Assembly: GCF_900199205.1 (NCBI RefSeq)
Contig: NZ_OBMJ01000001.1
Span: 4,281,001 to 4,345,000 of the forward strand
Source of the DNA: Streptomyces sp. 1331.2
Lineage (GTDB): Bacteria; Actinomycetota; Actinomycetes; Streptomycetales; Streptomycetaceae
Reading direction: 5' to 3'
Length of the DNA stretch: 64,000 bases
Position 1 is the stretch's first letter; every line of letters starts with the position of its first letter. Under the pieces are notes generated by a model. The model ran no database searches and had not been told where the DNA came from. It was given only the letters and a program-made list of their open reading frames with translations. The translations under genes and the position numbers were made by a program. This document shows positions 1 to 12,961 of this stretch, one piece after another.

Positions 1-1481
1 CCGTGCGCAGCCACTGTCCGGCCGCCGTGCAGGTGCACACCCCGGCCGCCGAGGGCGCCGACTTCGACCTCGCCAAGCTGGTCGCCGAGGCCGTCCGCTC
101 CGGCAAGCACGTGGTCCGCACCGTCGACGGCGACCCTGGCCTGGACGGCTGCGCCGCCGAGGAGATGCTCAGCTGCGCGGGCGACGGGATCCCCTTCGAG
201 GTGATCCCCGGCGTCGCCCAGTCGGTCGGCGTCCCGGCGTACGCGGGCGTCCCGCTGCGGGCCGGGGCCGGCACCGACGTGCGCTTCGTGGACGGCGCCC
301 AGCTGCTGTCCGGCGGCCCGGTGGACCTGGGCGGCGCGGAGACCACCCTGGTGGTCCGCACCACCCTGGGCCAGCTGCCGGCCACCGCGGGCGCGCTGGT
401 CTCCAACGGCCGCAAGCCGGAGTCGGCGCTGAGCGCGACGCTCTCCGGCACCACCACCCGCCAGCGGACCTTCACCTCCACCCTGGCCGGCATCGCGGCC
501 GACCTGAAGGCCGCCCGGGTGCTGCCCTCGCCGGTCTCCGCCCCGGTCGACCCGGCCACCTCGGTGATAGCCGTGGTGGGCGAGCAGGTCGCCCACCGGG
601 CCTCGCACTCCTGGTTCGAGACCAAGCCGCTGTTCGGCTGGAACGTCCTCGTGCCGCGCACCAAGGAGCAGGCCACCGGCCTGTCCGAGCAGCTGCGCTC
701 GTACGGCGCGGTGCCGCAGGAGGTGCCGACCATCGCGGTCGAGCCGCCGCGCACCCCGCAGCAGATGGAGCGGGCCATCAAGGGCCTGGTCACCGGCCGC
801 TACGAGTGGATCGCCTTCACCTCGGTGAACGCGGTGCGCGCGGTCCGGGAGAAGTTCGAGGAGTACGGCCTGGACGCCCGCGCGTTCGCCGGGATCAAGG
901 TCGCGGCGGTCGGCGAGACCACCGCGCAGGCCCTGGTGGACTTCGGTGTGAAGCCGGACCTGGTGCCCTCCGGCGAGCAGTCCGCCGCCGGTCTGCTGGA
1001 GGACTGGCCGCCGTACGACCCGGTCTTCGACCCGATCGACCGGGTGCTGCTGCCGCGCGCCGACATCGCCACCGAGACCCTGGTGGCCGGCCTGGTCGAG
1101 CTCGGCTGGGAGGTCGACGACGTGACGGCGTACCGGACGGTGCGCGCCTCGCCGCCGCCGGCCGAGACCCGCGAGGCGATCAAGGGCGGCGGCTTCGACG
1201 CGGTGCTGTTCACCTCGTCCTCGACCGTCCGGAACCTGGTCGGCATCGCGGGCAAGCCGCACAACGTCACGGTCATCGCCTGCATCGGCCCGGCGACCGC
1301 CAAGACCGCCGAGGAGCACGGCCTGCGGGTCGACGTGATGGCCCCGGCGCCGTCGGCGGCCGCGCTGGCCCAGGCGCTGGCAGACTTCGGGGCCAAGCGC
1401 CGTGACACCGCGACGGCGGCGGGCGAGCCGGTCTACCGGCCGAGCGAGCGCCGCCCGGGCTCGCGCCGCAAGGCCCGCTGA
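1..1481 (+). CDS. hemD: Uroporphyrinogen-III synthase fused to a degenerate methyltransferase domain, 5' end cut off
   Basis: Converts hydroxymethylbilane to uroporphyrinogen III in cytoplasmic tetrapyrrole synthesis. Reading frame 3 is open from the window edge, so the true start lies upstream; a GTG at base 3 is probably internal. The first ~190 residues resemble a tetrapyrrole methylase-like (SUMT) domain but the usual glycine-rich loop reads [13 protein letters not shown], so the methyltransferase activity is doubtful. From about residue 205 a complete HemD domain follows ([17 protein letters not shown], then [11 protein letters not shown] and [13 protein letters not shown]), ending in a basic tail. 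The same fused architecture is usual in streptomycetes. hemB follows 71 bases downstream on the same strand, so the two are likely one operon with hemA/hemC upstream of the window. Confidence 0.93.
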
Positions 1482-1552
1482 CCCTCAACCAGGGTGCCGG
1501 GGGCGGCAGTTCGTCGCCCCCGGCACTGTACGACCGTTCGGAGAGAGAAGCC

Positions 1553-2533
1553 GTGTCCGCTGAATTCCCGTACGTACGCCCGCGCCGACTGCGGCAGAGC
1601 CCGGCGATGCGCCGGCTGGTCGCCGAGACCCGGCTGCACCCGGCGGAGCTGATCCTGCCCGCCTTCGTCAGCGAGGGCATCACCGCGCCGAAGCCGATCA
1701 CCTCGATGCCCGGCGTGGTCCAGCACACCCGGGACACCCTGCGGAAGGCCGCGGTGGAGGCCGCCGAGGCCGGCGTGGGCGGCATCATGCTGTTCGGCCT
1801 GCCCGAGGTGAAGGACGCCGTCGGCTCCGAGGGGACGAACCCGGACGGGATCCTGCAGCAGGCCATCCGCGACGTGGTCGCCGAGGTCGGCGACCAGCTG
1901 GTGGTCATGTCGGACCTCTGCCTGGACGAGTTCACCGACCACGGCCACTGCGGCGTGCTGGCCGAGGACGGCAGCGTGGACAACGACGCGACCCTGGAGC
2001 GCTACGCCGAGATGGCCGTGGTCCAGGCCGAGGCAGGCGTCCACGTGGTCGGCCCGTCGGGGATGATGGACGGTCAGATCGCGGTCATCCGCCGGGCGTT
2101 GGACGGGGCCGGCCACCAGGACGTCAGCATCCTCGCCTACACCGCCAAGTACGCCTCCGCGCTGTACGGCCCGTTCCGCGAGGCCGTCAACTCCTCGCTC
2201 AAGGGCGACCGCAAGAGCTACCAGCAGGACCCGGCCAACGCCCGCGAGGCGCTGCGCGAGCTGGAGTTGGACCTCGCCGAGGGCGCGGACATGGTGATGG
2301 TGAAGCCCGCCATGCTGTACCTGGACGTGCTGCGGCAGGTCGCCGACGTCTCCCCGGTGCCGGTGTCCGCCTACCAGATCTCCGGCGAGTACGCGATGGT
2401 GGAGGCCGCCGCCGCCAACGGCTGGATCGAGCGCGAGCGCACCATCCTGGAGACGCTCACCTCCATCCGCCGGGCCGGTGCCGAGCAGATCCTCACCTAC
2501 TGGGCCGTGGAAGCGGCCCGGTTGCTCAAGTAG
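1553..2533 (+). CDS. hemB: Delta-aminolevulinic acid dehydratase (porphobilinogen synthase)
   Basis: Condenses two 5-aminolevulinate molecules to porphobilinogen in the cytoplasm. The 326-residue length is normal for the family. The metal-site segment [14 protein letters not shown] lies near residues 120-133, with two cysteines as in zinc-type enzymes. The Schiff-base lysines sit in [12 protein letters not shown] (about 198) and [11 protein letters not shown] (about 250). The start is GTG at 1553, preceded by the purine-rich ggagagagaag. It is the last gene of the hem operon, followed at once by a strong hairpin terminator. hemL, which makes its substrate, lies about 11 kb downstream. Confidence 0.96.
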
Positions 2534-2550
2534 CAGGCGCCGCAACGCAG

Positions 2551-2590
2551 AAGGCCGGGCCGTTCCCCTCGCGGGGAGCGGCCCGGCCTT
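2551..2590. terminator. Bidirectional terminator hairpin after hemB
   Basis: Two 18-base arms (2551-2568 and 2573-2590) pair with one mismatch around a 4-base loop. It lies between convergent hemB and the small secreted gene at 2599-2865, so it can serve both strands. Confidence 0.85.
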
Positions 2591-2598
2591 CCCGTTTG

Positions 2599-2865
2599 CT
2601 ACATCCAGCCCTTGATGTGGGCGAAGCCCTCGCCGCCGCCGACGATGTCGGTGGAGGTGGCGGCGACGGCACCGAAGCCGCCCGCGGCGGTGTCCGTGGT
2701 GTGGGCGATGCCGAAGCCCTCGGCCGCCAGGAACGGCTGGTTCGCGGTGGCGGCGAACGAGCCGCCGCCGACCAGGCCGGCGTGGGCGAAGGCCGGGGTG
2801 GCGGCGCCCGCGAGTGCCAGTGCGGCGGTGGCGGTCAGCGCGGCCTTGGCCAGCATGCTCTTCAT
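2599..2865 (-). CDS. Small secreted protein of unknown function
   Basis: 88 residues beginning MKSMLAKAALTATAALALAG. The N-terminus is a clear Sec signal peptide, predicted to be cut after PAFA near residue 27, leaving a mature chain of about 61 residues. That chain is Gly/Ala rich (HAGLVGGGSF near the start, GGGEGFAHIKGWM at the end) with no cysteine. I do not recognise a family. An in-frame ATG further upstream would add a basic leader, but the chosen ATG places the signal peptide at the N-terminus and follows a purine-rich agagagggc. It adjoins the rodlin genes on the same strand, suggesting a cell-surface role during aerial growth. That role is inference from position only. Confidence 0.75.
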   Translation of the reverse strand: MKSMLAKAALTATAALALAGAATPAFAHAGLVGGGSFAATANQPFLAAEGFGIAHTTDTAAGGFGAVAATSTDIVGGGEGFAHIKGWM

Positions 2866-3017
2866 GGATCTGCCCTCTCTCTGGGAGCGCCCGCTCGGAC
2901 GCTCTGACACGTGTTCACATCCGTTCGTCCGGCCGCGCGCCCCGCGCCGGCCCGGACGAGCGGTCACCCGGCCGGTCCGCGCTGCGGCGGCCGTCCGGAC
3001 ACTTCGTCCGCCAAGCC

Positions 3018-3055
3018 CGGAGGGCCCGGGGAGACCTTCCTCCCCGGGCCCTCCG
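3018..3055 (-). terminator. Terminator after the rodlin pair
   Basis: Perfect 15-base GC-rich arms (3018-3032 and 3041-3055) around an 8-base loop, 20 bases past the stop codon of the second rodlin gene. Confidence 0.75.
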
Positions 3056-3074
3056 TCCGTGCCATGCCCCTTGA

Positions 3075-3419
3075 TCAGCCGATCAGGTGCGAGACGCCCG
3101 CGTCGCCCGAGGACTGGGTGTTCTGGCCGACGTTGCAGATCTGCTTCGGGGTGCTGTTCAGGACCGGAACCTCGACCGGAACCGCGACGCCGATCACGCC
3201 GACGGCGATGTTGTGGACCTCCGGCAGGCAGATGTTCGCGTTGTCCAGGGTGTGGAAGTTCGGGCTGCCGTTGCCGTGGGTGCCGGTCTGGTTGGTGCCG
3301 CCGTTGCCCTGGACGGAGGTGGCGGCGCCGTCCGAGTCGACGATGGCGGAGGCCGAGCCGGCGGACATCGCGATGGCGGCGGCGGCCAGGCCGGCGGCGG
3401 CGAGGGACTTCTTGATCAT
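3075..3419 (-). CDS. Rodlin, second gene of the pair
   Basis: 114-residue exported protein of the rodlin (RdlA/RdlB) family, which organises chaplin fibrils into rodlets on aerial hyphae and spores. The signal peptide MIKKSLAAAGLAAAA ends near SASA (residue 25). The mature part keeps the family order: an NGxG segment (VQGNGGTN), SPNFHTLDNANICLPEV, the hydrophobic VGVIGVAVPVEVPVLN, a second cysteine (KQICNVGQ) and a C-terminal GDAGVSHLIG. It is closely similar to the gene 81 bases upstream. The gap holds only a small inverted repeat (3442-3459), so both are probably cotranscribed. A gagagga ribosome site precedes ATG. The symbol is left blank because A/B orthology cannot be judged here. Confidence 0.85.
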   Translation of the reverse strand: MIKKSLAAAGLAAAAIAMSAGSASAIVDSDGAATSVQGNGGTNQTGTHGNGSPNFHTLDNANICLPEVHNIAVGVIGVAVPVEVPVLNSTPKQICNVGQNTQSSGDAGVSHLIG

Positions 3420-3500
3420 TTCCGGTTTTCCTCTCGGGGGTGAATCGGGGGAGCGATTCGTGGGTGGATCGGGGGGTGGTGCAGGGAGCTGAACGGAGCG

Positions 3501-3845
3501 TCAGCCGATCAGGTGGGACACGCCCGCGTCGCCGTGGCTCTGGGTGCCCTGGCCCTGGGTGCAGTACTGCTTGCCACCGCTGTTGGCGATCGGGACCTCG
3601 ACCGGGACGGCCACCCCGAGCACGCCGACGGCGATGTTGTGGATCTCGGGGAGGCAGACGTTCGCGTTGTCCAGGAAGTGGAAGTTCGGGCTGTTGTTCC
3701 CGACCGTTCCGGTGAAGTTGGTGCCGCCGTTGCCCTCGATGGAGGCTGCGGCGCCGTCCGCGTCACCGATGGCCGAGGCGGGCGCGGCTGCGGCGGCCAG
3801 CGCGGCGACGGCCAGGCCGGCAGCGGCGAAGGACTTCTGGATCAT
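3501..3845 (-). CDS. Rodlin, first gene of the pair
   Basis: Also 114 residues, starting MIQKSFAAAGLAVAALAA with signal cleavage near PASA. The mature domain tracks the neighbouring rodlin: IEGNGGTNFTG, NSPNFHFLDNANVCLPEI, VGVLGVAVPVEVPI, a second cysteine in KQYCTQG, and the same GDAGVSHLIG end. I chose the internal ATG at 3845 over a longer in-frame start because it places the signal peptide first and follows agagaggga. A sigma-BldN-like promoter lies about 90 bases upstream (3934-3961). Tandem rodlins beside chaplins are also known from S. coelicolor. Confidence 0.86.
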   Translation of the reverse strand: MIQKSFAAAGLAVAALAAAAAPASAIGDADGAAASIEGNGGTNFTGTVGNNSPNFHFLDNANVCLPEIHNIAVGVLGVAVPVEVPIANSGGKQYCTQGQGTQSHGDAGVSHLIG

Positions 3846-3933
3846 GGGGAGATCCCTCTCTGAAATGCTCTTGGATTCCGTGCGTACAACGCGTAGAACG
3901 CTCAGACCCGGTCTGCAGTCACTGACGTCCAGA

Positions 3934-3961
3934 TCAAAGAATGACGGCACGGAAGGTTACG
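3934..3961 (-). promoter_or_regulatory. Sigma-BldN-like promoter for the rodlin pair
   Basis: On the minus strand, CGTAAC (3961-3956), a 16-base spacer and CTTTGA (3939-3934). The consensus I recall for sigma-BldN (bldM and chaplin promoters) is CGTAAC, 16 bases, CGTTGA. The -35 is exact, the -10 is 5 of 6, and the spacing is exact. The start codon at 3845 lies about 88 bases downstream. Confidence 0.65.
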
Positions 3962-4039
3962 GGGATTTTTGAAAAGAGTCCGGGAGACACGACGAAGGGG
4001 GGTTTCCGGTCGGATTATTAGGCCGATCCGGTTAACCGC

Positions 4040-4068
4040 CGCAATCCGTCCTCCTGCTCACTCGTTGA
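4040..4068 (+). promoter_or_regulatory. Possible sigma-BldN-like promoter for the exported protein at 4146
   Basis: CGCAAT (4040-4045), a 17-base spacer and an exact CGTTGA -10 (4063-4068), 78 bases before the ATG. The -35 is only 4 of 6 and the spacer one base long, so this is weaker than the rodlin site. The 300-base gap 3846-4145 holds this and the rodlin promoter, and a GGTTAACC palindrome near 4030. Confidence 0.4.
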
Positions 4069-4145
4069 GGCAGATTGCTTTCCGGCTGCGCCCGCGCAGC
4101 CCTTCCTCAGTGATCCCCTGTACGGACAGCAGAACGGTGAAAAGC

Positions 4146-4865
4146 ATGAAGTTCTCCAAGCGGGCCGGCGCGATGCTGCTGGCGGTCGGTGCGGGCATGC
4201 TCGCCTCCCAGGGCGCGGCCTCCGCCGCCCCGGTCGGCCCCGAACAGGTCGGGGCCCTGGAGGACGCGCTGGCCACCCAGCAGGTCCCCGCGGACGTACC
4301 GCTCACTCCGCTGGGCAGCCACGTCTCGGCCGGCATCCCGGCCTCGCTGCTGATGCCGCCGGTGCCCGGCCGGACCACCAGCACCAGCACCGAGCTGGTC
4401 CCGGAGCGGATCGTCCCCCAGCTGAGCACCGGCAAGGTCGGCCCGAGCGCCAAGGCCGAGCTGCCGCTCCCGCTGGTCGACCAGGGCGCCGACCTCGGGC
4501 AGGTGCTGCTGGACGCCCCGGCCGCGCCGCTGCGCGCCGACACCCCCGGCCTCACCCTCGGCAAGCCGCTCTCGCTCGCCCAGGACGGCGCGGGCCAGCT
4601 CGCCGGTGGCCGGCTCCGGGTGGACGAGGTCGACCCGCGGCTGCTCACCGGCGCCGTGCAGGTCGTCCCCGGGGCCAATGCGAGCCTCGGCAGCGAGGAG
4701 CACCGGCTCTCGGTCACCGACGAGGTGGACGACCTGACCATGACCACCGCGGCGACGGCCACCGGCGTGGTCCAGCAGACCGGCCTGGCCGACCCGGCGG
4801 CCACCACCGCCACGGCCACCGGTGTGCTGCGGCAGACCGGGCTGACCGACCTCACCCGGCTCTGA
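4146..4865 (+). CDS. Exported protein of unknown function in the chaplin/rodlin island
   Basis: 239 residues starting MKFSKRAGAMLLAVGAGMLA, a Sec signal peptide ending near GAASA (residue 27). The mature protein is Pro/Leu/Ala/Thr rich, cysteine-free and has no domain I recognise. The C-terminus carries an imperfect duplication, ATATGVVQQTGLADP and then ATATGVLRQTGLTD. A longer in-frame start at 3969 would give a basic leader with no role, so the ATG at 4146 is preferred. It is divergent from the rodlins and has a BldN-like -10 upstream. It may be another surface component made during aerial development, which is inference from context. Confidence 0.78.
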   Translation: MKFSKRAGAMLLAVGAGMLASQGAASAAPVGPEQVGALEDALATQQVPADVPLTPLGSHVSAGIPASLLMPPVPGRTTSTSTELVPERIVPQLSTGKVGPSAKAELPLPLVDQGADLGQVLLDAPAAPLRADTPGLTLGKPLSLAQDGAGQLAGGRLRVDEVDPRLLTGAVQVVPGANASLGSEEHRLSVTDEVDDLTMTTAATATGVVQQTGLADPAATTATATGVLRQTGLTDLTRL

Positions 4866-4892
4866 TCCGGCTCCGCCCCGGGCGGCAGCACA

Positions 4893-4936
4893 CCGGAGCC
4901 CGGCACCCGCCGTACGGGCGGGGTGCCGGGCTCCGG
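4893..4936. terminator. Bidirectional terminator between convergent exported-protein genes
   Basis: Arms of about 19 bases (from 4893 and up to 4936) pair around a short GTAC loop with one bulged G. It lies between the convergent genes 4146-4865 and 4966-5346. Confidence 0.8.
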
Positions 4937-4965
4937 CGCGTCCGGACCCTCGGCCCGGCCGGGGC

Positions 4966-5346
4966 TCAGCCCGGCAGGACGCCGGTCAGCCCGCCGACCA
5001 GCGGGAGGTCCTTGACGCCGCCGCCCGCGCTCAGCGGACCGGTCAGCGTGCCGGTGCCGATCGGGGCCAGGCCCTGGTCCGGCTGGACGGTCGCGCCGTT
5101 GTTGAGCACGTCGGCCGAGGAGTTCGCCCACGGGTCCAGACGCAGGCCCTTGAGCGGCGCGATGCCGTAGCCGAGGCCGGAGGTCGTCCCGTTCAGCGCC
5201 TGGCCGACGTCGGTCCTGGCCAGCGTGGCCGGCCCGGCCGGGGCCTGGCCGGCCGGGGCGGTGGCGGCCTGCGCCGAACCGGCGCCGAGCAGCACCACGG
5301 CACCGACGGCGGCGGCCAGACCGGCCCCGCTCTGCTTCGAAACCAT
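4966..5346 (-). CDS. Small exported Gly/Leu/Pro-rich protein of unknown function
   Basis: 126 residues starting MVSKQSGAGLAAAVGAVVLLG, a signal peptide cut near AQAA (about residue 27). The mature chain of about 100 residues has no cysteine and alternates Gly, Leu and Pro, ending GGVKDLPLVGGLTGVLPG. No family recognised. The ATG at 5346 is preceded by aaggg at good spacing; the longer upstream frame lacks coding character. It lies between two terminators (4893-4936 and 5401-5432), so it is probably transcribed alone. Its position among chaplins and rodlins is the only functional clue. Confidence 0.75.
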   Translation of the reverse strand: MVSKQSGAGLAAAVGAVVLLGAGSAQAATAPAGQAPAGPATLARTDVGQALNGTTSGLGYGIAPLKGLRLDPWANSSADVLNNGATVQPDQGLAPIGTGTLTGPLSAGGGVKDLPLVGGLTGVLPG

Positions 5347-5400
5347 GCGGATCACCCTTCGGTGGATCGGAGGTCCCGGACGGCCGTCCGGGGATGCCGA

Positions 5401-5432
5401 ACTGCCCCCCGGCCGGCTGGTCGGGGGGCAGT
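5401..5432 (-). terminator. Terminator after the chaplin pair
   Basis: Perfect 10-base arms, ACTGCCCCCC and GGGGGGCAGT, around a 12-base loop, 28 bases past the stop of the chaplin at 5460-5729. Confidence 0.7.
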
Positions 5433-5459
5433 ACGGCCGGATCACGTGCCGATCGGGGA

Positions 5460-5729
5460 TCAGCAGTTGTCCGCCGGCGGCGGGGGCAGCTCGACGTTGG
5501 CGCAGCTGTTGCCGAAGGCCGGGTTCAGCGCGCCGATCACGTTGACGGTGTTGCCGCACAGGTTGATCGGGATGTGGATCGGCACCTGGATCTGGTTGCC
5601 GGAGATGACGCCGGGGGAGCCGGCGGCGACGCCCTCGGCGCCCGCGCTCGCGGCGGCGGAGCCTGCCGCGCCCAGCACCAGGCCGGCAGCGGCGGCGGAG
5701 AGGACGGCGGCCTTCTTCACGTTCTGCAT
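5460..5729 (-). CDS. Short chaplin with an extra proline-rich, cysteine-ended tail
   Basis: Chaplins are secreted amyloid-forming proteins that coat aerial hyphae. This 89-residue protein has a signal peptide (MQNVKKAAVLSAAAAGLVLG, cut near AAASA) and one chaplin domain: AAGSPGVISGNQIQVPI, LCGNTVNVIGALNPAFGN, SCAN. The two domain cysteines are present. Unlike its two neighbours it does not stop after SCAN but continues VELPPPPADNC, giving a third cysteine as the final residue. The ATG follows gaggagatc. It lies 109 bases after another chaplin on the same strand; a hairpin (arms 5765-5772 and 5789-5796) sits in the gap. Confidence 0.88.
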   Translation of the reverse strand: MQNVKKAAVLSAAAAGLVLGAAGSAAASAGAEGVAAGSPGVISGNQIQVPIHIPINLCGNTVNVIGALNPAFGNSCANVELPPPPADNC

Positions 5730-5838
5730 GGGGGTTGATCTCCTCGATCACACACGGGTGGAGCGTGCCGCGCTCCGGCACTGTGGTGCGCGGCACGTGC
5801 TCGGTGAGTCAGCTGTCGCCGGTGCGGCGACCGCCGCT

Positions 5839-6081
5839 TCAGCCGATGTTGGCGCAGCTGTTGCCGAACGCCGGGTTCAGGATCGTGATGAGCCCGATGG
5901 TGTTGCCGCAGACGTTGACCGGAATGTGCACCGGGATCTGGATCTGGTTGCCGGAGAGCACGCCCGGGGAGCCGGCGGCCACGCCCTCGGCGCCCGCGCT
6001 GGCGAACGCGCCGCCGGCGGCACCGAGCACCAGGCCGGTGGCGGCCAGCGACAGGGCGGCGGCCTTCTTGATGTTGCGCAT
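5839..6081 (-). CDS. Short chaplin
   Basis: 80 residues: signal peptide MRNIKKAAALSLAATGLVLG cut near AFASA, then a single chaplin domain (AAGSPGVLSGNQIQIPV, VCGNTIGLITILNPAFGN, SCANIG) with both conserved cysteines. This is the ChpH-like short form, with no LPXTG sorting signal. The ATG at 6081 follows a strong ggaggaaag. It is the first gene of a two-chaplin unit reading leftward and diverges from the third chaplin at 6668. Confidence 0.9.
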   Translation of the reverse strand: MRNIKKAAALSLAATGLVLGAAGGAFASAGAEGVAAGSPGVLSGNQIQIPVHIPVNVCGNTIGLITILNPAFGNSCANIG

Positions 6082-6667
6082 GATGTCTTTCCTCCGATTT
6101 CCGCCCGACGGAAGGGAATTGTCGGGAGCCAGGCGAGCGGGAATACTCGCCCCAGGTCTTCTGGGATTGCCGTGATTGTCACTCGGACGGCGCACACCGG
6201 CGTGTTCCGCCCATGGCTCGGGCGTGGACGCAGCCGCCGTGTTGCAGCGCCTCTCGAAATCCCTTCCGCACGGCCGGGAGAGTTTCGGACAAAGGCGCGA
6301 CCAGGTGGAATTCCCGGTCAGACGTTCCGGCAGGGATTGCCGGACGCCGCGTTCGGGAGGCCCGCCACGAGACCCGAGCCGCCGGTGGCCGCGTTGCCGA
6401 CGACGCCGTGGGCGAGCTTGCGCATGAGCGGTACTCGATTCGTGTTGTGGGGGCCGGTGGACCGGGTTCCGTGAGGGAGAACGAGGCACCGCGCGCGGGG
6501 AAACGGTCCGGCTTCCTGATCACCCGAATGCCGGTCGCGGCTGCCCGGCGCGGGCGCTGTTGCGCCAGACGGGTGACAGTGCGCTCACCGTCGCAACCGG
6601 TTCGGGGAGGTCTCGTTCTTGATGTCGCACTCCCCGTGCATCTCTGTTGAACAGTCAGGAGGCTCGC
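6082..6667. other. Divergent intergenic region between chaplins, with a possible tiny ORF
   Basis: This 586-base gap carries promoters for both flanking chaplins. On the minus strand a 35-residue ORF (6425-6318) reads MRKLAHGVVGNAATGGSG and ends LPNAASGNPCRNV, which faintly echoes the chaplin end LNPAFGNSCAN. It has no obvious ribosome site or signal peptide, so it may be a decayed chaplin 3' end or chance. Nothing else with coding character was seen. Confidence 0.35.
6592..6619 (+). promoter_or_regulatory. Sigma-BldN-like promoter for the plus-strand chaplin
   Basis: CGCAAC (6592-6597), a 16-base spacer and CGTTCT (6614-6619). Against CGTAAC/CGTTGA this is 5 of 6 and 4 of 6 with exact spacing, about 48 bases before the start codon at 6668. 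Confidence 0.5.
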
Positions 6668-6907
6668 ATGAGCATCAAGAAGACCGCCGCTGTCGGCGCG
6701 GCCGTGGTGGGCATCGTGGCCGCCGGCGCCGGCACCGCGATGGCCAGCTCCGGCGCCGAGGGCGTCGCGGCCGGTTCCCCCGGTGTCATCTCGGGCAACC
6801 AGATCCAGATCCCGGTGCACATTCCGGTCAACCTCTGCGGCAACTCCGTCGACGTCGTCGGACTGCTGAACCCGGCGTTCGGCAACCACTGCGTCAACGC
6901 GGGCTGA
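6668..6907 (+). CDS. Short chaplin
   Basis: 79 residues: signal peptide MSIKKTAAVGAAVVGIVAAG cut near AMASS, then one chaplin domain (AAGSPGVISGNQIQIPV, LCGNSVDVVGLLNPAFGN, HCVNAG) with two cysteines. I start at the ATG at 6668 rather than an in-frame one seven codons earlier, because AGGAGG lies at 6658-6663, just before it. It is monocistronic, between a BldN-like promoter and a strong terminator. Confidence 0.9.
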   Translation: MSIKKTAAVGAAVVGIVAAGAGTAMASSGAEGVAAGSPGVISGNQIQIPVHIPVNLCGNSVDVVGLLNPAFGNHCVNAG

Positions 6908-6930
6908 GTCCGTACCCGGTTCGGCCGGTG

Positions 6931-6978
6931 AGAGCCGCCGCTCCGCGCTTCCCTCCTGGGGCGCGGGGCGGCGGCTCT
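6931..6978 (+). terminator. Terminator after the plus-strand chaplin
   Basis: 18-base arms (6931-6948 and 6961-6978) with one mismatch and a 12-base loop. Confidence 0.75.
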
Positions 6979-7030
6979 TCGCCTGCCCGGGTGGTTGGTG
7001 CACCGTCAGTTCCCCGCGCTGTCACAAGCC

Positions 7031-7059
7031 TTGTTGCGTTACTTGTCAGTACCTAGAAT
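7031..7059 (+). promoter_or_regulatory. HrdB-type promoter for the SGNH hydrolase
   Basis: TTGTTG (7031-7036), a 17-base spacer and TAGAAT (7054-7059), close to the housekeeping TTGACA/TATAAT pattern. Start codon at 7152, leaving a leader of roughly 85 bases. Confidence 0.55.
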
Positions 7060-7151
7060 GCGAGACCTGCTCACCTTTTCAGCTCCTCTCCTGCACCGCG
7101 CCGCTCGGCGCCCCCGCCAGGGCGGTCCCCCACCCCCGCAAGGAGTCGCGT

Positions 7152-8834
7152 GTGATCAGGTCACGACTGTCGGCGGCACGGCGCCATGGGAGGCCGGCGG
7201 GCCGCTCCCGGTACGCCGCACTGCTCGCCACCGGCACCCTCGTCGCCACCCTCGGCCTGGCCGGCGCCCCCGCCGCCCTCGCCGATTCCGCCCCGGCCCC
7301 GGCCCCGGTCGGTGCCCGTCCGGCCGCGGTCGTCGCCCTCGGCGACAGCGCCATCTCCGGGGAGGGCGCCGGCACCGACACCAACGACGGCTACTTCCCG
7401 GAGACCGACAGCCCCACCAATTACTGCCACCGGCACCCCAAGTCGGAGATCTTCGTCACCGACATCCCGGGGGTCACCCCGATCGACCTCGCCTGCTCCG
7501 GCGCCCAGACCGGCGACCTGGTCAGCGACCCGGAACTGGCGAAGATCACCGGCCCGGGCTTCGGCGACTTCGGCGAGCCCAAACAGGACGTCAAACTCGC
7601 CGACACGGCCGCCAAGTACGACGTCAAGATGGTCGTCGTCACGATCGGTGCCAACGACGACTTCGACTTCAGCGGGATCATGATGCACTGCCTGGCGCAG
7701 TACTTCCCGGTCCCCAAGGACCAGGGCTGCCGCGACACCATCGGCAGCGACGAGATCCGCCGGCGGGCCAAGGGCGTCCAGCCCAAGGTCGTCGCGGCGC
7801 TGCAGAACATCCGGCAGACCATGCGCAGGGCCGGCTACGCCGACTCCTCGTACCAGCTGGTCTACCAGTCGTACTTCAACCCGATCACCCCGGACATCCG
7901 GCGCAACGACTACCTCGGCAAGGTCGCCGACGGCTGTCCGGCCTTCCCCGAGGACCTCGCCTGGGGGCACAACTGGGTGGTGCCGACCCTCAGTGACGCG
8001 CTGCGCGGGGCAGCCGAGCAGGTGCCCGGCGTCCGGTACCTGGACCAGCGACGGGTCTCCTTCGGCCACGAGGTCTGCGCGGAGTGGACGAGCTCCCCGT
8101 ACGAGTACAGCAACGGGGACGTCATCAACCTCTCCGAGTGGGTGCGCAACGGCTGCGACTCGCAGATCGGCATCCCCGGGCTGTGCATGAACATGGTCCG
8201 CCAGTCGTACCACCTGCGGGTGGCCGGCTACCGCGGCGAGGGCGTCTGCCTCGGCCAGTTCTACGCCCGGCCCGACCTCGCCCAGGCGTACTGCACGCTC
8301 AACCAGCAGAACACCACCTCGATCCAGCCGCTGACCCCCGGGCAGCCCTTCGCGGACGTCCCCGAGGACGGCGCCTGGTACCAGCTCACCAACGCGGCCA
8401 CCGGCAACGTCCTCGACCTCACCGGCGGCGGCACCTACGGCGACTCCACCGACGGCCGGCCCGCGATCAGCTACCCGGCCACCGGCAGCCTCAACCAGTC
8501 CTTCGTGCTGGAGGCCAAGGCCGGCGGCAGCTACGAGCTCGACTTCAGCGGCAACCGCGCCATGTGCCTGGACGCCAACGCCGCCTCCACCGCCCCCGGC
8601 ACCCGGATCCAGCAGTGGGGCTGCAACGGCGGCGGCAACCAGCACTGGGTGTTCAAGCCGACCGGCGACGGCCGCTACAAGGTCGCCGACTCCGCCGACC
8701 CCTCCAAGGTCCTCGCCGCCGCCCCCACCCTCGACGCCAAGGGCAACCCCTACATCGAACTCGCCCAGGACACCGGCGCCCCCACCCAACTCTGGCAACT
8801 CACCAAGCTCGGCATCGTCTACGTCAAGGGCTGA
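7152..8834 (+). CDS. Secreted SGNH/GDSL hydrolase with C-terminal ricin-type lectin domain
   Basis: Extracellular esterase/lipase-like enzyme, 560 residues. An Arg-rich signal peptide (RRHGRPAGRSRYAALLATG) is cut near ALA-DS at about residue 45. The SGNH blocks are visible: VVALGDSAISGEG (nucleophile Ser near 64), the CSGAQT region, TIGANDDFDF (block III, near 166), and a late SYHLRVAGY that may carry the catalytic His. Residues from about 415 form a ricin B lectin domain with LDLTGG, QQWGCNGGGNQHW and QLWQL repeats, suggesting polysaccharide binding. The start is GTG, ten bases after aaggag. It lies alone between a promoter and a terminator. The substrate cannot be told. Confidence 0.88.
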   Translation: MIRSRLSAARRHGRPAGRSRYAALLATGTLVATLGLAGAPAALADSAPAPAPVGARPAAVVALGDSAISGEGAGTDTNDGYFPETDSPTNYCHRHPKSEIFVTDIPGVTPIDLACSGAQTGDLVSDPELAKITGPGFGDFGEPKQDVKLADTAAKYDVKMVVVTIGANDDFDFSGIMMHCLAQYFPVPKDQGCRDTIGSDEIRRRAKGVQPKVVAALQNIRQTMRRAGYADSSYQLVYQSYFNPITPDIRRNDYLGKVADGCPAFPEDLAWGHNWVVPTLSDALRGAAEQVPGVRYLDQRRVSFGHEVCAEWTSSPYEYSNGDVINLSEWVRNGCDSQIGIPGLCMNMVRQSYHLRVAGYRGEGVCLGQFYARPDLAQAYCTLNQQNTTSIQPLTPGQPFADVPEDGAWYQLTNAATGNVLDLTGGGTYGDSTDGRPAISYPATGSLNQSFVLEAKAGGSYELDFSGNRAMCLDANAASTAPGTRIQQWGCNGGGNQHWVFKPTGDGRYKVADSADPSKVLAAAPTLDAKGNPYIELAQDTGAPTQLWQLTKLGIVYVKG

Positions 8835-8849
8835 CGAGGACATGGACGT

Positions 8850-8884
8850 GATCCGCCGCCGCCCCGCCAGGGCGGCGGCGGATC
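8850..8884 (+). terminator. Terminator after the SGNH hydrolase
   Basis: Perfect 15-base arms (8850-8864 and 8870-8884) with a 5-base loop, 15 bases past the stop. Confidence 0.8.
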
Positions 8885-9005
8885 GGTTTCCGGCAAGGGA
8901 GCCACGGGTGCGCCGGGCCCGGCGAGGCGTGCCGTAGGCTCTCGGGGACATCGTTGCGCCGGAGCCGCGCGGACCAGGAGCGGGGCGGGGGAGTACCGAC
9001 AGCAC

Positions 9006-10286
9006 ATGAGCACGGCATCGAGCACCGAGTCGTCCAGCACCGAGCCCGGGGCGTCCGCCGCGCTGCCGAGCGCGCCGTCCGAGGAGCGGGCGGGCCGGGC
9101 GCCCGGGCGGTTCGGGGCGCTGGTGGACCGCTTCGCGCCCGCGCTGGGCGCCTACGCGGTGGTCAAGGCCACCGGCCTGACCGTCTTCCTGCTGCTGCTC
9201 TCGCACACCGGCGACTACCTGAAGAAGCAGCCGGGCCGCGGCGGCGGCGCCAACCCCTGGGACGTGCTGAGCACCTGGGACGGCGTCTGGTACCAGCGGA
9301 TCGCCGAGAACGGCTACAACCCGCAGCTGATCCCGCTGCACGGCTTCCCGCTCGCCACCTACTACGAGAACTCGGCCGCCTTCTTCCCGCTCTACCCGTG
9401 GCTGATGCGGCTGGTCGGCGCGGTCACCGGGCTCGGCTCGTACGGGTCCGGGATCGTGGTCTCGGTGCTCGCCTCGCTGGTCGCGGCGGCCGGGATCTTC
9501 GCGATCGCCGAGCGGCTGGGCGGCTTCCGGGCGGGGGTGACGGCCGCGGTGATCTGGGGCCTGTTCCCGGGCTCCGGCGTGGAGTGGGCGGTCTACTCGG
9601 ACTCGCTGTTCGTCGCGCTGTCCGCCTGGGCCTGCTACTGCGTGATGACCCGCCGCTGGGTCGCGGCCGGCCTGCTGGCGCTGGTGGCGGGCCTAAACCG
9701 GCCGACGGCCGCCGCGCTGATCGCCGCCGTCTCGATCGCCGCGCTGGTCGCGCTGGTGCGCCGCACCGACGGCGTGGCCCGCCCGCTGACCGCGATGCTG
9801 ATCACTCCCTGGGGGCTGGTCGGCTACGTCGCCTGGGTCGGCTGGAAGATGGGCGACTGGGGCGGCTACTTCAAGCTCCAGCGCGGAGCCTGGAACCGCT
9901 ACTTCGACGGCGGTGCCTCCACCCTGCGCACGATCATGGACGTGATCACCGGCCACTGGGACTTCTGGCAGTCCAACCCCGTCCCGGACCTGATCGCCAT
10001 CGCCCTGCTGATCGCCCTGCCCGGCCTGCTGGTGCTGCTCTGGCGCGCCCGGCCGCCGCTGGTGCTGTGGGTCTACACCGCGCTGACCATCATCACCGCG
10101 CTCAGCAGCAACCAGATCTTCGGCAACATCTCGCGCTACCTGCTGCCGGCCTTCCCGCTCTGCATCGGCCTGGCGTTCGCGCTGCGCCGGGTGCGGACCT
10201 CCTCGCTGGTCGGGCTGTTCGCGATGCCCGCGATCGCGGCGGGCTGGTACGCGGGCTATGCGCTGTTCGAGTTGGGCATCCCGTAG
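9006..10286 (+). CDS. PIG-V-like integral membrane mannosyltransferase
   Basis: 426 residues with a disordered Ser/Ala-rich N-terminus (about 1-40) and roughly nine to eleven hydrophobic segments. The segment STWDGVWYQRIAENGY near residue 96 is the conserved first-loop motif of the PIG-V/GPI mannosyltransferase 2 family found in actinobacteria; these are GT-C type enzymes expected to use polyprenyl-linked sugar donors at the outer membrane face. The later SSNQIFGNISRYLLPAFPL also fits. Acceptor unknown. It reads toward the MarR gene, 63 bases away, but that gene has its own operator-like repeat. Confidence 0.75.
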   Translation: MSTASSTESSSTEPGASAALPSAPSEERAGRAPGRFGALVDRFAPALGAYAVVKATGLTVFLLLLSHTGDYLKKQPGRGGGANPWDVLSTWDGVWYQRIAENGYNPQLIPLHGFPLATYYENSAAFFPLYPWLMRLVGAVTGLGSYGSGIVVSVLASLVAAAGIFAIAERLGGFRAGVTAAVIWGLFPGSGVEWAVYSDSLFVALSAWACYCVMTRRWVAAGLLALVAGLNRPTAAALIAAVSIAALVALVRRTDGVARPLTAMLITPWGLVGYVAWVGWKMGDWGGYFKLQRGAWNRYFDGGASTLRTIMDVITGHWDFWQSNPVPDLIAIALLIALPGLLVLLWRARPPLVLWVYTALTIITALSSNQIFGNISRYLLPAFPLCIGLAFALRRVRTSSLVGLFAMPAIAAGWYAGYALFELGIP

Positions 10287-10298
10287 ACCCGGCTTTGG

Positions 10299-10339
10299 TT
10301 GGCAACGGGATCATCCGGCAGCAGACGGGCCGTTGCTAA
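10299..10339 (+). promoter_or_regulatory. Inverted repeat before the MarR gene
   Basis: TTGGCAACG (10299-10307) and CGTTGCTAA (10331-10339) are inverted repeats with one mismatch, ending 10 bases before the ATG. This could be an autoregulatory operator. The spacing of 23 bases is wide for a single MarR dimer site. Confidence 0.35.
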
Positions 10340-10349
10340 CCTCGGGCGT

Positions 10350-10838
10350 ATGACGACGACCCCGCCCGTGCGCCAGATCCGCGACATCTCCGGCCTGCTG
10401 GACCACGCGAGCCACGTGCTGGCGACCCGGATGGCGGCCGCCTTCACCGAGCTCGGGATCACCCCCCGCGCGTACTGCGTGCTGTTCCACGCGCAGGAGG
10501 CCGAGCGCACCCAGATCCAGCTGGCCGAGCTGTCGGACCTGGACAAGACCACCATGGTGGTCACCGTCGACGAGCTGGAGAAGGCGGGCCTGGCGGAGCG
10601 CCGCCCGTCCGCGACCGACCGCCGGGCCCGGATCATCTCGGTCACCGAGGCGGGCGAGCGGGCCGTGGTGCAGGGCACCGCGATCGCCGACCGGGTGCAC
10701 CGCGAGCTGCTGGATTCGCTGCCGCAGCCCGAGCGCGAGGTCTTCGTCTCGGCCCTGACCCACCTGGTGGAGGACCACCTCGCGGAGCCGGTGGAGAGCG
10801 AGCGGACCGTACGCCGGGCCCGGCGGTCCCGCGGGTGA
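10350..10838 (+). CDS. MarR-family transcriptional regulator
   Basis: 162-residue winged-helix repressor. The DNA-binding part runs about residues 35-100: TPRAYCVLFHAQEAE, LAELSDLDKTTMVVTVDELE, then the wing RRPSATDRRARIISVTEAG. The ATG at 10350 is chosen over an in-frame start 17 codons earlier because that would run into the inverted repeat. Leader space is short, so the transcript may be leaderless. It precedes a DHA2 efflux pump by 115 bases on the same strand, the usual MarR repressor and drug exporter arrangement. The ligand is unknown. Confidence 0.88.
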   Translation: MTTTPPVRQIRDISGLLDHASHVLATRMAAAFTELGITPRAYCVLFHAQEAERTQIQLAELSDLDKTTMVVTVDELEKAGLAERRPSATDRRARIISVTEAGERAVVQGTAIADRVHRELLDSLPQPEREVFVSALTHLVEDHLAEPVESERTVRRARRSRG

Positions 10839-10953
10839 GGCACCTCCCGAGGCGCTGCAGCCCCTCACCCAAGCTGCTCCCGAGATAGATAGTCCCGAAC
10901 AAAACAATCTGATAGCGTTCCTACCCGGTACCCAACGAACCGGGAGAACCGCC

Positions 10954-12393
10954 ATGACCACGCACGCCCCCGCCGCGCCCCCCACGGCCCCCACGGCCCC
11001 CGCCCGCTCCCGCACCCTCGCCCTCGCGGTGCTCTGCGCGGGCATGCTGATGATCATCCTGGACGGCTCGATCGTCACCGTGGCACTGCCCGCCATCCAG
11101 GACGACCTGCACTTCTCGCCCGCCGACCTGACCTGGACGGTCAACGCCTACCTGATCGCCTTCGGCGGCCTGCTCCTGCTCGCCGGCCGGCTCGGCGACC
11201 TGATCGGCCGCAAGCGGGTGTTCGTCGCCGGGCTCGCCCTCTTCACCGCGGCCTCCCTGCTCTGCGCCCTCGCCACCGGGCAGGGAATGCTGATCGCCGC
11301 CCGCTTCCTGCAGGGCATCGGCGGCGCGATGGCCTCCTCGGTCAGCCTCGGCATGATCGTCACGCTCTTCCCCGAGCCGCGCGAACGCGGCCGCGCCATC
11401 GGCGCGTTCAGCTTCGTCGGCGCGGCCGGTGCCTCGATCGGCCAGGTCCTCGGCGGGGTGCTCACCGAGGCCCTCGACTGGCACTGGATCTTCCTGATCA
11501 ACCTGCCGCTCGGCCTCACCGCCGCCCTGCTCGCCGTCCGGGTGCTGGAGGCCGACCGCGGCCCTGGTCTGCGGGCCGGCGCCGACGCCCTCGGCGCCGC
11601 GCTGATCACCGCCGCCCTGATGCTCGGCATCTACACCATCGTCGGCGCCGCCGGGCACGGTTGGGCCTCCGCCCGCACCCTCGGCCTCGGCGCGCTCTCG
11701 CTCGCCCTGCTGGCCTGCTTCCTGCTCCGCCAGGCCCGGGCGGCCCAACCCCTGCTCCCGCTGCGGATGTTCCGCTCACGCAACGTCTCCGGCGCCAACC
11801 TGGTGCAGATCCTGACCATCTCCGGGATGTTCGGCTTCCAGATCATCGTCGCGCTCTACATGCAGCAGGTCCTCCGCTACGGCGCGGCCGCCACCGGCCT
11901 GGCGATGCTGCCGGCAGCCGTCGCGATCGGCGCGGTCTCGCTGCTGCTCTCCGCCCGGCTGAGCGCAAGGTTCGGCGAGCGCGGCGTCCTGCTGGCGGGC
12001 CTGGCCCTGCTGCTCGCCGCGCTCGGCCTGCTGGTCCGGCTGCCGACCGACGCCGACTACGTCGTCCACCTGCTGCCGACGATGCTGCTCGTCTCCGGTG
12101 GCGGCCTGGTGCTGTCCACGCTCGCCGTCCTCGGCATGTCGGGCGCCGGACCGCAGGACGCGGGCACCGCCTCGGGCCTGTTCAACACCACCCAGCAGGT
12201 CGGCGGGGCACTCGGGGTCGCCGTCCTCACCACGCTCGCGGGCGGCCGCACCGCGGCGCTGACCGCGGCCGGGCACCCCGCCGCCGAGGCGCTCACGGCC
12301 GGCTTCCGGCTCGCCTTCGCGGTGGCCGCGGGCCTGTTGGCGGTGGCCCTGCTGCTCGCCGCCGCGGTGCTGCGATCGCCCGCCAGGAGTTGA
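10954..12393 (+). CDS. MFS multidrug efflux transporter, DHA2 (EmrB/QacA) family
   Basis: 479 residues with 14 expected membrane segments. Motif A is visible in [16 protein letters not shown], the family start in [17 protein letters not shown], and motif C-like [15 protein letters not shown]. It should export hydrophobic drugs or secondary metabolites using the proton gradient. The upstream 115 bases contain repeated GATAG elements (about 10886-10913) that may be regulator sites. It is probably controlled by the adjacent MarR protein. A short palindrome TTGACG-aag-CGTCAA overlaps the stop codon. Confidence 0.9.
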
Positions 12394-12478
12394 CGAAGCG
12401 TCAATCAGCCTCGCCCCGGCCCGCGTTCGGCGGAGTCGGGGTGAAGCATTGCGGCTGCGGCTGCGGCTGCGTCTGCGG

Positions 12479-12961
12479 TTACGGCCAGACCAGGCAGTAC
12501 AGCTGGTGCCCGGCGTCGTGCAGCCGGTTGGCGAAGTCCTGCCACTCGTGCAGCATGCTGTAGATCACGAAGGCGTCCCGCGGCCCGCGCCGGTCCGGCA
12601 CGGTGGACCAGATGAAGGCGGCGGCGCCGAGCTCGGTCTCGTCGGCCTTGCGGAGCGGTTCGACGACGTTGTGCGGGAGCTGGACCACGGCGTAGTCCGG
12701 GTGCAGCACGATGAGCTCCAGCGGCGGCACCTGGTGCAGCGGGACGCCCTGGATGCCGGTGAGGACCATGGCGCTCATGGTCTCCGGTTTGATCTTGGTG
12801 GAGAGGTGGCCGGTGGGGGAGCCGCTGGTCTCCATCAGGTCGCCGAGCCGCCCCAGCGAGCCGAGCTCGCCGGCGTCCAGGCCGAGCCCGCCGGGGCCGA
12901 GCGCGGTGGGGACTCTCGCGGCGGTCGCACGGTCCGGGGCCCCGAAGTACTTGTAGGTCAC
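12479..12961 (-). CDS. Conserved hypothetical protein convergent to the efflux pump
   Basis: 160 residues starting from GTG at 12961 ([10 protein letters not shown]...). The frame is open about 100 codons further up, but that part is low-complexity Arg/Gly/Ala and I judge it noncoding or a disordered extension. The conserved-looking core contains [50 protein letters not shown] and ends [13 protein letters not shown]. No signal peptide, membrane segment or catalytic motif is evident. A similar protein lies beside hemL in other streptomycetes as far as I recall. Function unknown. Beyond its 3' end is a short GGCTGC repeat run (12453-12475). Confidence 0.7.

Follow-up and report, generated by a model that had tools for sequence, protein, structure and literature searches.

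Three unnamed exported proteins accompany chaplins and rodlins at a Kitasatospora sheath locus

Introduction

The rodlet layer is usually described as being made of chaplins and rodlins. Chaplins (PF03777; ChpA-H of Streptomyces coelicolor) are small exported proteins with a conserved cysteine pair that assemble as amyloid where air meets water, and the rodlins RdlA and RdlB are recognized by the model NF041022. Here we describe three further exported proteins, designated U1, U2 and U3, that are encoded among chaplin and rodlin genes in a 64,000-nucleotide stretch of the Streptomyces sp. 1331.2 genome (‘the window’; 4.281-4.345 Mb of contig C1, in a genome of 8.43 Mb) – a strain that, judged by its relatives, belongs to the genus Kitasatospora. 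By description, they would resemble NepA of S. coelicolor, a structural protein of the spore wall (de Jong 2009, as cited in PMC5693915). NepA belongs to the surface of hyphae or spores during development and is neither a chaplin nor a rodlin; no relation is claimed. In Streptomyces venezuelae, chaplin and rodlin genes are driven by sigma-BldN, according to PMC4125116 and PMC4255298, and the latter, a 2013 review, says that obvious rodlins occur in streptomycetes only.

Gene content, synteny, co-occurrence, and promoter-like and hairpin sequences point to U1, U2 and U3 as probable auxiliary components of the water-repellent coat. We put at about even the chance that they are three unrelated accessory, non-fibre sheath proteins made together with the chaplin/rodlin sheath in aerial hyphae. 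U1 and U2 are good sheath-accessory candidates; U3 is probably a surface protein of wider occurrence whose tie to chaplins is confined to a single branch. The first-pass annotation of this DNA had proposed that all three may be further parts of the sheath. Linkage and co-occurrence, by which we judged an accessory role, support this proposal for U1 and U2; for U3, they support it within the island-bearing branch only and speak against it in nine other genera. Literature searches combining rodlins or chaplins with BldN, Kitasatospora, NepA/SapA or mel returned nothing on U1-U3 in titles or the starts of abstracts.

Results and discussion

The island encodes three proteins that are neither chaplins nor rodlins

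The island occupies both strands between hemB (1553-2533; PF00490 match) and a lipase gene, and all eight of its open reading frames – two rodlins, three short chaplins and three proteins of no recognized family – were recovered where the first-pass annotation had placed them. U1 (2599..2865, reverse strand) is an 88-amino acid protein with a glycine-rich mature part, encoded after the rodlins. U2 (4146..4865, forward strand) is a proline- and leucine-rich protein of 239 amino acids whose gene diverges from those of the rodlins, and U3 (4966..5346, reverse strand; 126 amino acids) is encoded by the last gene of the chaplin run. The signal peptides of all three were judged by eye from their N-termini. 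Rodlin 1 (3075..3419) and rodlin 2 (3501..3845), both on the reverse strand, match NF041022 with 42.2 bits (E = 7.2e-11) and 41.2 bits (E = 1.4e-10), respectively; because these scores fall well below the curated cut-off of 75, we consider the two proteins to be real but divergent rodlins. Short chaplins 1 (5460..5729, reverse strand), 2 (5839..6081, reverse strand) and 3 (6668..6907, forward strand) score 96.8, 93.3 and 99.8 bits against PF03777 (cut-off 21) and represent three of the seven chaplin-domain matches in the genome.

For the U1-U3 sequences of the window, Pfam yielded nothing at E≤1 and no NCBIfam hit fell below E = 0.15, in agreement with their first description as proteins of unknown family. 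Extending the scan to aligned family members (17 for U1, 25 for U2 and 37 for U3) gave no convincing match to either database, the sole hits at E≤0.01 being Thiolase_C in one of the 25 U2 proteins (E = 0.0081) and PspM in one of the 37 U3 proteins (E = 0.0093). U2 and U3 have no sequence relatives in the PDB at E≤1, and a Foldseek search with an AlphaFold2 model of U2 found no fold match (best E = 1.1). The three proteins are also unrelated to each other. Pairwise comparison confined their similarity to the signal peptide, and candidate kinships between U1 and U2, U1 and U3, U2 and U3, and U1 and X95 (a protein described below) were rejected because nothing else is shared.

A further possibility is that U1-U3 are highly diverged chaplins or rodlins, as the small size of U1 and U3, their export and their locus might suggest. 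Like chaplins, all three are exported and encoded by neighboring genes; like the rodlins, to which U1 is adjacent and from which U2 diverges, U2 is preceded by a similar promoter-like element. However, neither PF03777 nor NF041022 matches U1-U3 or any of the scanned family members, and the divergent-chaplin interpretation, which the first-pass annotation had also dismissed, was rejected. The absence of cysteine claimed at that stage likewise stood: the window’s U1, U2 and U3 contain none, its three chaplins contain two to three, and a single cysteine beyond residue 28 occurs in 3 of 103 orthologue rows from the U1-U3 families. U2 additionally differs from chaplins in its length and its proline/leucine-rich composition. 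We thus regard divergence from a chaplin or rodlin ancestor as very improbable.

In mature hydropathy U1 (0.40) falls near the chaplins (0.32-0.63), unlike U2 (0.08) and U3 (0.12), and mature U2 carries a net charge of -11. Sortase-anchored wall proteins end in a sorting motif, a membrane span and a charged tail; reading by eye found no such tail in U1-U3.

Gene order at the island is conserved across Kitasatospora

We surveyed 200 Streptomycetaceae genomes from 17 genera, 64 of them Kitasatospora (g1). The order hemD-hemB-U1-rodlins-U2-U3-chaplins recurs in 20 mapped Kitasatospora loci, apart from genes missing in three (rodlins and U1 in L160 and in L161, which is interrupted by a contig end; U1 in L157). 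Because gene order recurs across these loci, the arrangement is not a product of chance. Four loci from g3 (inferred from gene content to be Streptacidiphilus) and one from g4 preserve the order without U1, two g12 loci contain hemB-U3-chaplins with neither rodlin nor U2, and in one g8 genome U2 adjoins two rodlins and U3 lies on a different contig without chaplins. U2, U3, a rodlin and a chaplin occur together in 40 of 43 named loci, a set that is not independent of the survey since some of its genomes are the same (e.g., L175/G053, L205/G145 and L212/G011). In the remaining three, Peterkaempfera griseoplana and L212 have only U3 and chaplins and L217 has only U3. Named genomes with U3 include Kitasatospora, island-bearing strains named Streptomyces, Streptacidiphilus, Peterkaempfera and one island-less Streptomyces.

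Rodlins were detected in 160 of the 200 genomes and in 59 of the 64 Kitasatospora. Three Kitasatospora genomes lack U1, U2 and U3 altogether: G087 and G189 retain hemB, but the 20 kb surrounding it contain none of the island genes, and G069 has three chaplin open reading frames and the lipase gene beside hemB without a rodlin or any of the three proteins. Chaplin-domain matches remaining genome-wide number three in G087, three in G189 and seven in G069. Two further Kitasatospora genomes lack only rodlins and U1.

These absences bear on whether U1-U3 are hitch-hikers – fast-evolving secreted proteins without a link to the sheath, kept together only through block inheritance of the island. The absence of the whole island at once from G087 and G189 agrees with this explanation, as do the rapid sequence change of all three proteins and the residence of U3 elsewhere in another branch. 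By contrast, U1-U3 are absent from G069 together with the rodlins while its chaplins stay, U2 accompanies chaplins or rodlins in two genomic settings (the hemB island and a chaplin-mel interval), and the promoter-like element of U2 resembles that of a rodlin. Hitch-hiking is therefore improbable in our judgement.

U1 tracks rodlins within one genus and U2 is associated with them across the family

The first-pass annotation had called for a check of co-occurrence with rodlins. A single-sequence search identified U1 in 55 of the 200 genomes, all of them Kitasatospora, and a profile added three more (G175, G177 and G197) among the 20 mapped loci. Within this, its one genus, U1 is present in 58 of 59 rodlin-bearing genomes (all except G145) and in none of the five rodlin-less ones (p = 8e-7).

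U2 was found in 81 of the 200 genomes by single sequence and in 103 by profile, including 61 of the 64 Kitasatospora and 7 of the 17 genera. Both U2 and rodlins are present in 97 genomes, U2 alone in 6, rodlins alone in 63 and neither in 34, which amounts to a significant association across the family (Fisher p = 1.4e-7) and outside Kitasatospora (p = 0.005, kinship ignored). The tests for U1 and U2 alike ignore phylogeny, and the Kitasatospora absences may represent just three or four events. The U2-only genomes are G036, G147, G022, G023, G103 and G074, the last of which is 76% complete. Because rodlin-only and U2-only genomes both exist, U2 is dispensable for rodlets in general.

The second setting of U2 lies in groups g7, g9 and g10, which gene content suggests are Streptomyces-type and in which 25 genomes encode U2. 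Among 18 loci examined, U2 adjoins the melC1-melC2 tyrosinase genes and a chaplin in 14. In 13 of those 14, U2 sits between two chaplins together with the proteins X95 and Y219, and L254 has only mel genes and one chaplin beside U2. The remaining four loci (L248, L249, L250 and L255) contain a weaker U2 match with neither mel nor chaplin nor X95/Y219 alongside. The rodlin matches listed cover 19 of the 25 genomes: 13 of these genomes have a rodlin at a distance of ~16-21 kb from U2, and in G064, G086, G119, G132, G133 and G148 no listed rodlin is near U2.

X95 and Y219 are unnamed proteins with signal-like starts, encoded between chaplins near U2 and melC (in L148, at 11811-12098 and 12301-12960, respectively). 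The 13 of 18 loci that contain them are L148, L149, L243-L247, L251-L253 and L256-L258. X95 has no Pfam or NCBIfam match and Y219 has no NCBIfam match. In the S. coelicolor gene order of chpG (SCO2699), melC2 (SCO2700), melC1 (SCO2701) and chpF (SCO2705), the U2 homologue would presumably be SCO2702; the melC-side genes between chaplins, presumably SCO2702-SCO2704, would correspond to U2 plus X95 and Y219. A search of the literature on SCO2702-SCO2704 found no functional study. PMC5839063 names SCO2704 among the genes whose expression is raised by mutation of argR; chpA, chpB, chpC, chpD, chpG and both rodlins rise in the same mutant.

U3 is a widespread protein that sits at the chaplin island in one branch

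U3 has single-sequence matches in 170 of the 200 genomes and in 61 of the 64 Kitasatospora. Of the 109 bearing genomes outside Kitasatospora, we mapped 36 loci: 7 at the island (g3, g4 and g12) and 29 ‘solo’ copies from nine genera (g6-g10 and g14-g17). All mapped U3 copies of Kitasatospora, Streptacidiphilus and Peterkaempfera sit at the chaplin island. None of the 29 solo copies has a chaplin or rodlin within ~10 kb (flanks are shorter at contig ends in L114, L120 and L121). Homologues found mostly away from chaplin/rodlin loci, which the first-pass annotation would have read as evidence against a sheath role, are thus what we observed for U3 outside the island genera and not within them.

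In a U3 tree (24 island and 29 solo rows; L156, L157, L159 and L161 were left out as badly started or near-copies), island and solo copies form two clean groups with 100/99 support. A family profile detected exactly one copy in each of 12 U3-bearing genomes (15 searched); two single-sequence matches occur in 4 of the 170 genomes, and one of these matches is a 32-residue fragment. With the tree separating cleanly and one copy in each of the 12 genomes, the data fit a single relocation of one U3 gene rather than two paralogues.

In the four solo loci whose neighbors were read (L119, L130, L131 and L140), nearby genes encode an adenosine deaminase, the response regulator and histidine kinase of a two-component system, and an ECF (extracytoplasmic function) sigma factor, identities that were profile-tested in L130 and L131. 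This set resembles afsQ1/afsQ2/sigQ, and a literature search on SCO4909-SCO4911 gave nothing. Upstream of solo U3 genes (L112-L147) are the conserved blocks CAACTAC, partly with CGTTAC, and GAACTCACGG. BldM group I sites with up to three mismatches occur in 12 of 29 solo U3 upstream regions and in 50 of 1500 random pieces.

At the island, a perfect 11-bp hairpin identified by folding and stem search (5401..5432, reverse strand) lies between the chaplin 1 stop and the U3 start. The surrounding 113-nt region folds better than its shuffles (z = -3.31). A strong stem, defined as one reached by at most 1 in 100 mononucleotide shuffles, precedes U3 in 21 of the 28 upstream regions; the sequence of the stem varies among them, and some of the misses are attributable to misplaced starts. 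Some 30 nt separate the end of the stem from the U3 start in L125 and L129; because this leaves little room for a promoter, read-through from the chaplins would be the simplest supply of U3 transcript. Rfam has no match in positions 1-12000 of the window.

Promoter-like elements precede U2, a rodlin and a chaplin

We observed ECF-type promoter-like elements upstream of rodlin 2 (GTGACT-N-GCGTT; 3897..3922, reverse strand), U2 (GCAATC-N-TCGTTGA; 4041..4068, forward strand) and chaplin 3 (GCAACC-N14-TCGTT; 6593..6617, forward strand). A two-box model built from eight training sites, seven rodlin and one chaplin, scored the U2 and chaplin 3 elements at p = 0.0033 and p = 0.0047, respectively; for rodlin 2 it favored a different position, 115 nt before the start (p = 0.0027). 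Background pieces were 150 bp long and orthologue upstream regions 170 bp. At p<0.01 the model identified 8 of 20 Kitasatospora U2 orthologues; in the window, p ranged from 0.27 to 0.94 for U1, U3, rodlin 1, chaplin 1 and chaplin 2.

The rodlin 2 element may belong to sigma-BldN. The strict pattern GCAACC-N-TCGTT occurs at five places genome-wide (two in controls), among which chaplin 3 is the only chaplin or rodlin. Three of the other four were read, and because they precede genes unlike sheath genes, the element is too unspecific for a sigma-BldN assignment. The element’s regular expression also matches within chaplin coding sequence (GTGATCGG...GGCGTT), so that the raw number of matches for U3 and chaplins does not count promoters. 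A first guess at the promoter, GTAAC-N-CGT, was dropped because, of 52 regions upstream of rodlins, it matched 1, and it matched none of the others; a sigma-70 promoter scan found none.

Using the BldM-WhiI group II consensus as given in PMC4125116, we identified sites with one mismatch to TGnnCCGnnCGGGTGA upstream of U1 (2964..2979, reverse strand), chaplin 2 (6179..6194, reverse strand) and chaplin 3 (6561..6576, forward strand). Sites with zero or one mismatch occur in 13 of 1500 random 250-bp pieces. Allowing up to two mismatches, sites occur in 10 of 19 U1 rows versus 164 of 1500 random pieces.

Possible roles of U1, U2 and U3

How might three unrelated proteins contribute to one coat? 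Concerning timing, location and molecular role, we infer the following. U2 would be expressed from a rodlin-like ECF promoter, probably under sigma-BldN, in the intergenic region that it has in common with the rodlins. Once exported, this flexible, acidic, proline- and leucine-rich protein may help to organize or anchor rodlin/chaplin fibrils. U1 could be a small, glycine-rich, hydrophobic partner that depends on the rodlins. Transcription of U3 would proceed from the chaplins through the hairpin, which may hold U3 at substoichiometric levels, and U3 would represent a conserved low-abundance surface factor of most Streptomycetaceae whose gene may reside elsewhere.

Several observations weigh against a shared accessory role in the sheath. 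Rodlins occur without detectable U2 in 63 of the 200 genomes, U2 occurs without rodlins in 6, and all 29 solo U3 genes stand apart from chaplins and rodlins. The form of the promoter-like element was read by eye off the U1, U2, U3, rodlin and chaplin upstream regions, making the U2 test not fully independent; furthermore, the model missed the window’s rodlin 1, chaplin 1 and chaplin 2 (p = 0.49, 0.91 and 0.92) and at p<0.01 identified none of 6 U2 orthologues outside Kitasatospora, none of 18 U1 rows and none of 27 U3 rows. RNAalifold returned no consensus pairs for the U3 hairpin, with several alignment inputs cut through the stem. AlphaFold2 models of U2 and U3 are uninformative (mean pLDDT 50.7 and 49.0), and the strand-rich middle of the U2 model is tentative at this low confidence. 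Finally, dN/dS values of 0.31-1.14 for U1, 0.49-0.74 for U2 and 0.35-0.62 for U3, obtained without control genes, indicate that all three evolve fast.

Alternatively, U1-U3 may be developmentally co-regulated exported proteins that do other work – for example in the wall, spore coat or pigment – and merely share a locus and promoters with the sheath genes, an alternative that we consider possible, if less than likely. U2 lies beside tyrosinase genes in Streptomyces-type genomes, U3 lies near two-component system and ECF sigma factor genes in the four loci read, G036 and G147 keep U2, U3 and chaplins without rodlins, and 18 of the 20 mapped Kitasatospora loci also have a lipase/lectin gene at the island. 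Yet U1 tracks rodlins, U2 is with rodlins or chaplins in most examined loci, and the rodlin-less islands of P. griseoplana and L212 lack U2.

A wider and more tentative generalization is that the Streptomycetaceae sheath contains further conserved classes of protein: U2 as an old rodlin/chaplin partner that Kitasatospora and Streptacidiphilus share with part of Streptomyces, and U3 as a nearly universal low-dose surface factor, with its supply in Kitasatospora set by read-through of the chaplin terminator hairpin. U1-U3, with U2 also available at the Streptomyces-type chaplin locus, are knock-out targets for studying how fibrils are ordered, anchored or limited.

Neighboring lipase and rodlin annotation

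The gene at the island edge (7152..8834, forward strand) encodes a GDSL-type lipase with ricin-lectin domains; ricin-lectin scores above its cut-off and Lipase_GDSL_2 below (26.2 bits, cut-off 32.9). This gene is also the one kept beside chaplins in G069. Across the survey, 85 of the 160 rodlin-positive genomes exceed the NF041022 cut-off, and Kitasatospora-type rodlins scoring 41-42 bits may go unnamed in automatic annotation.

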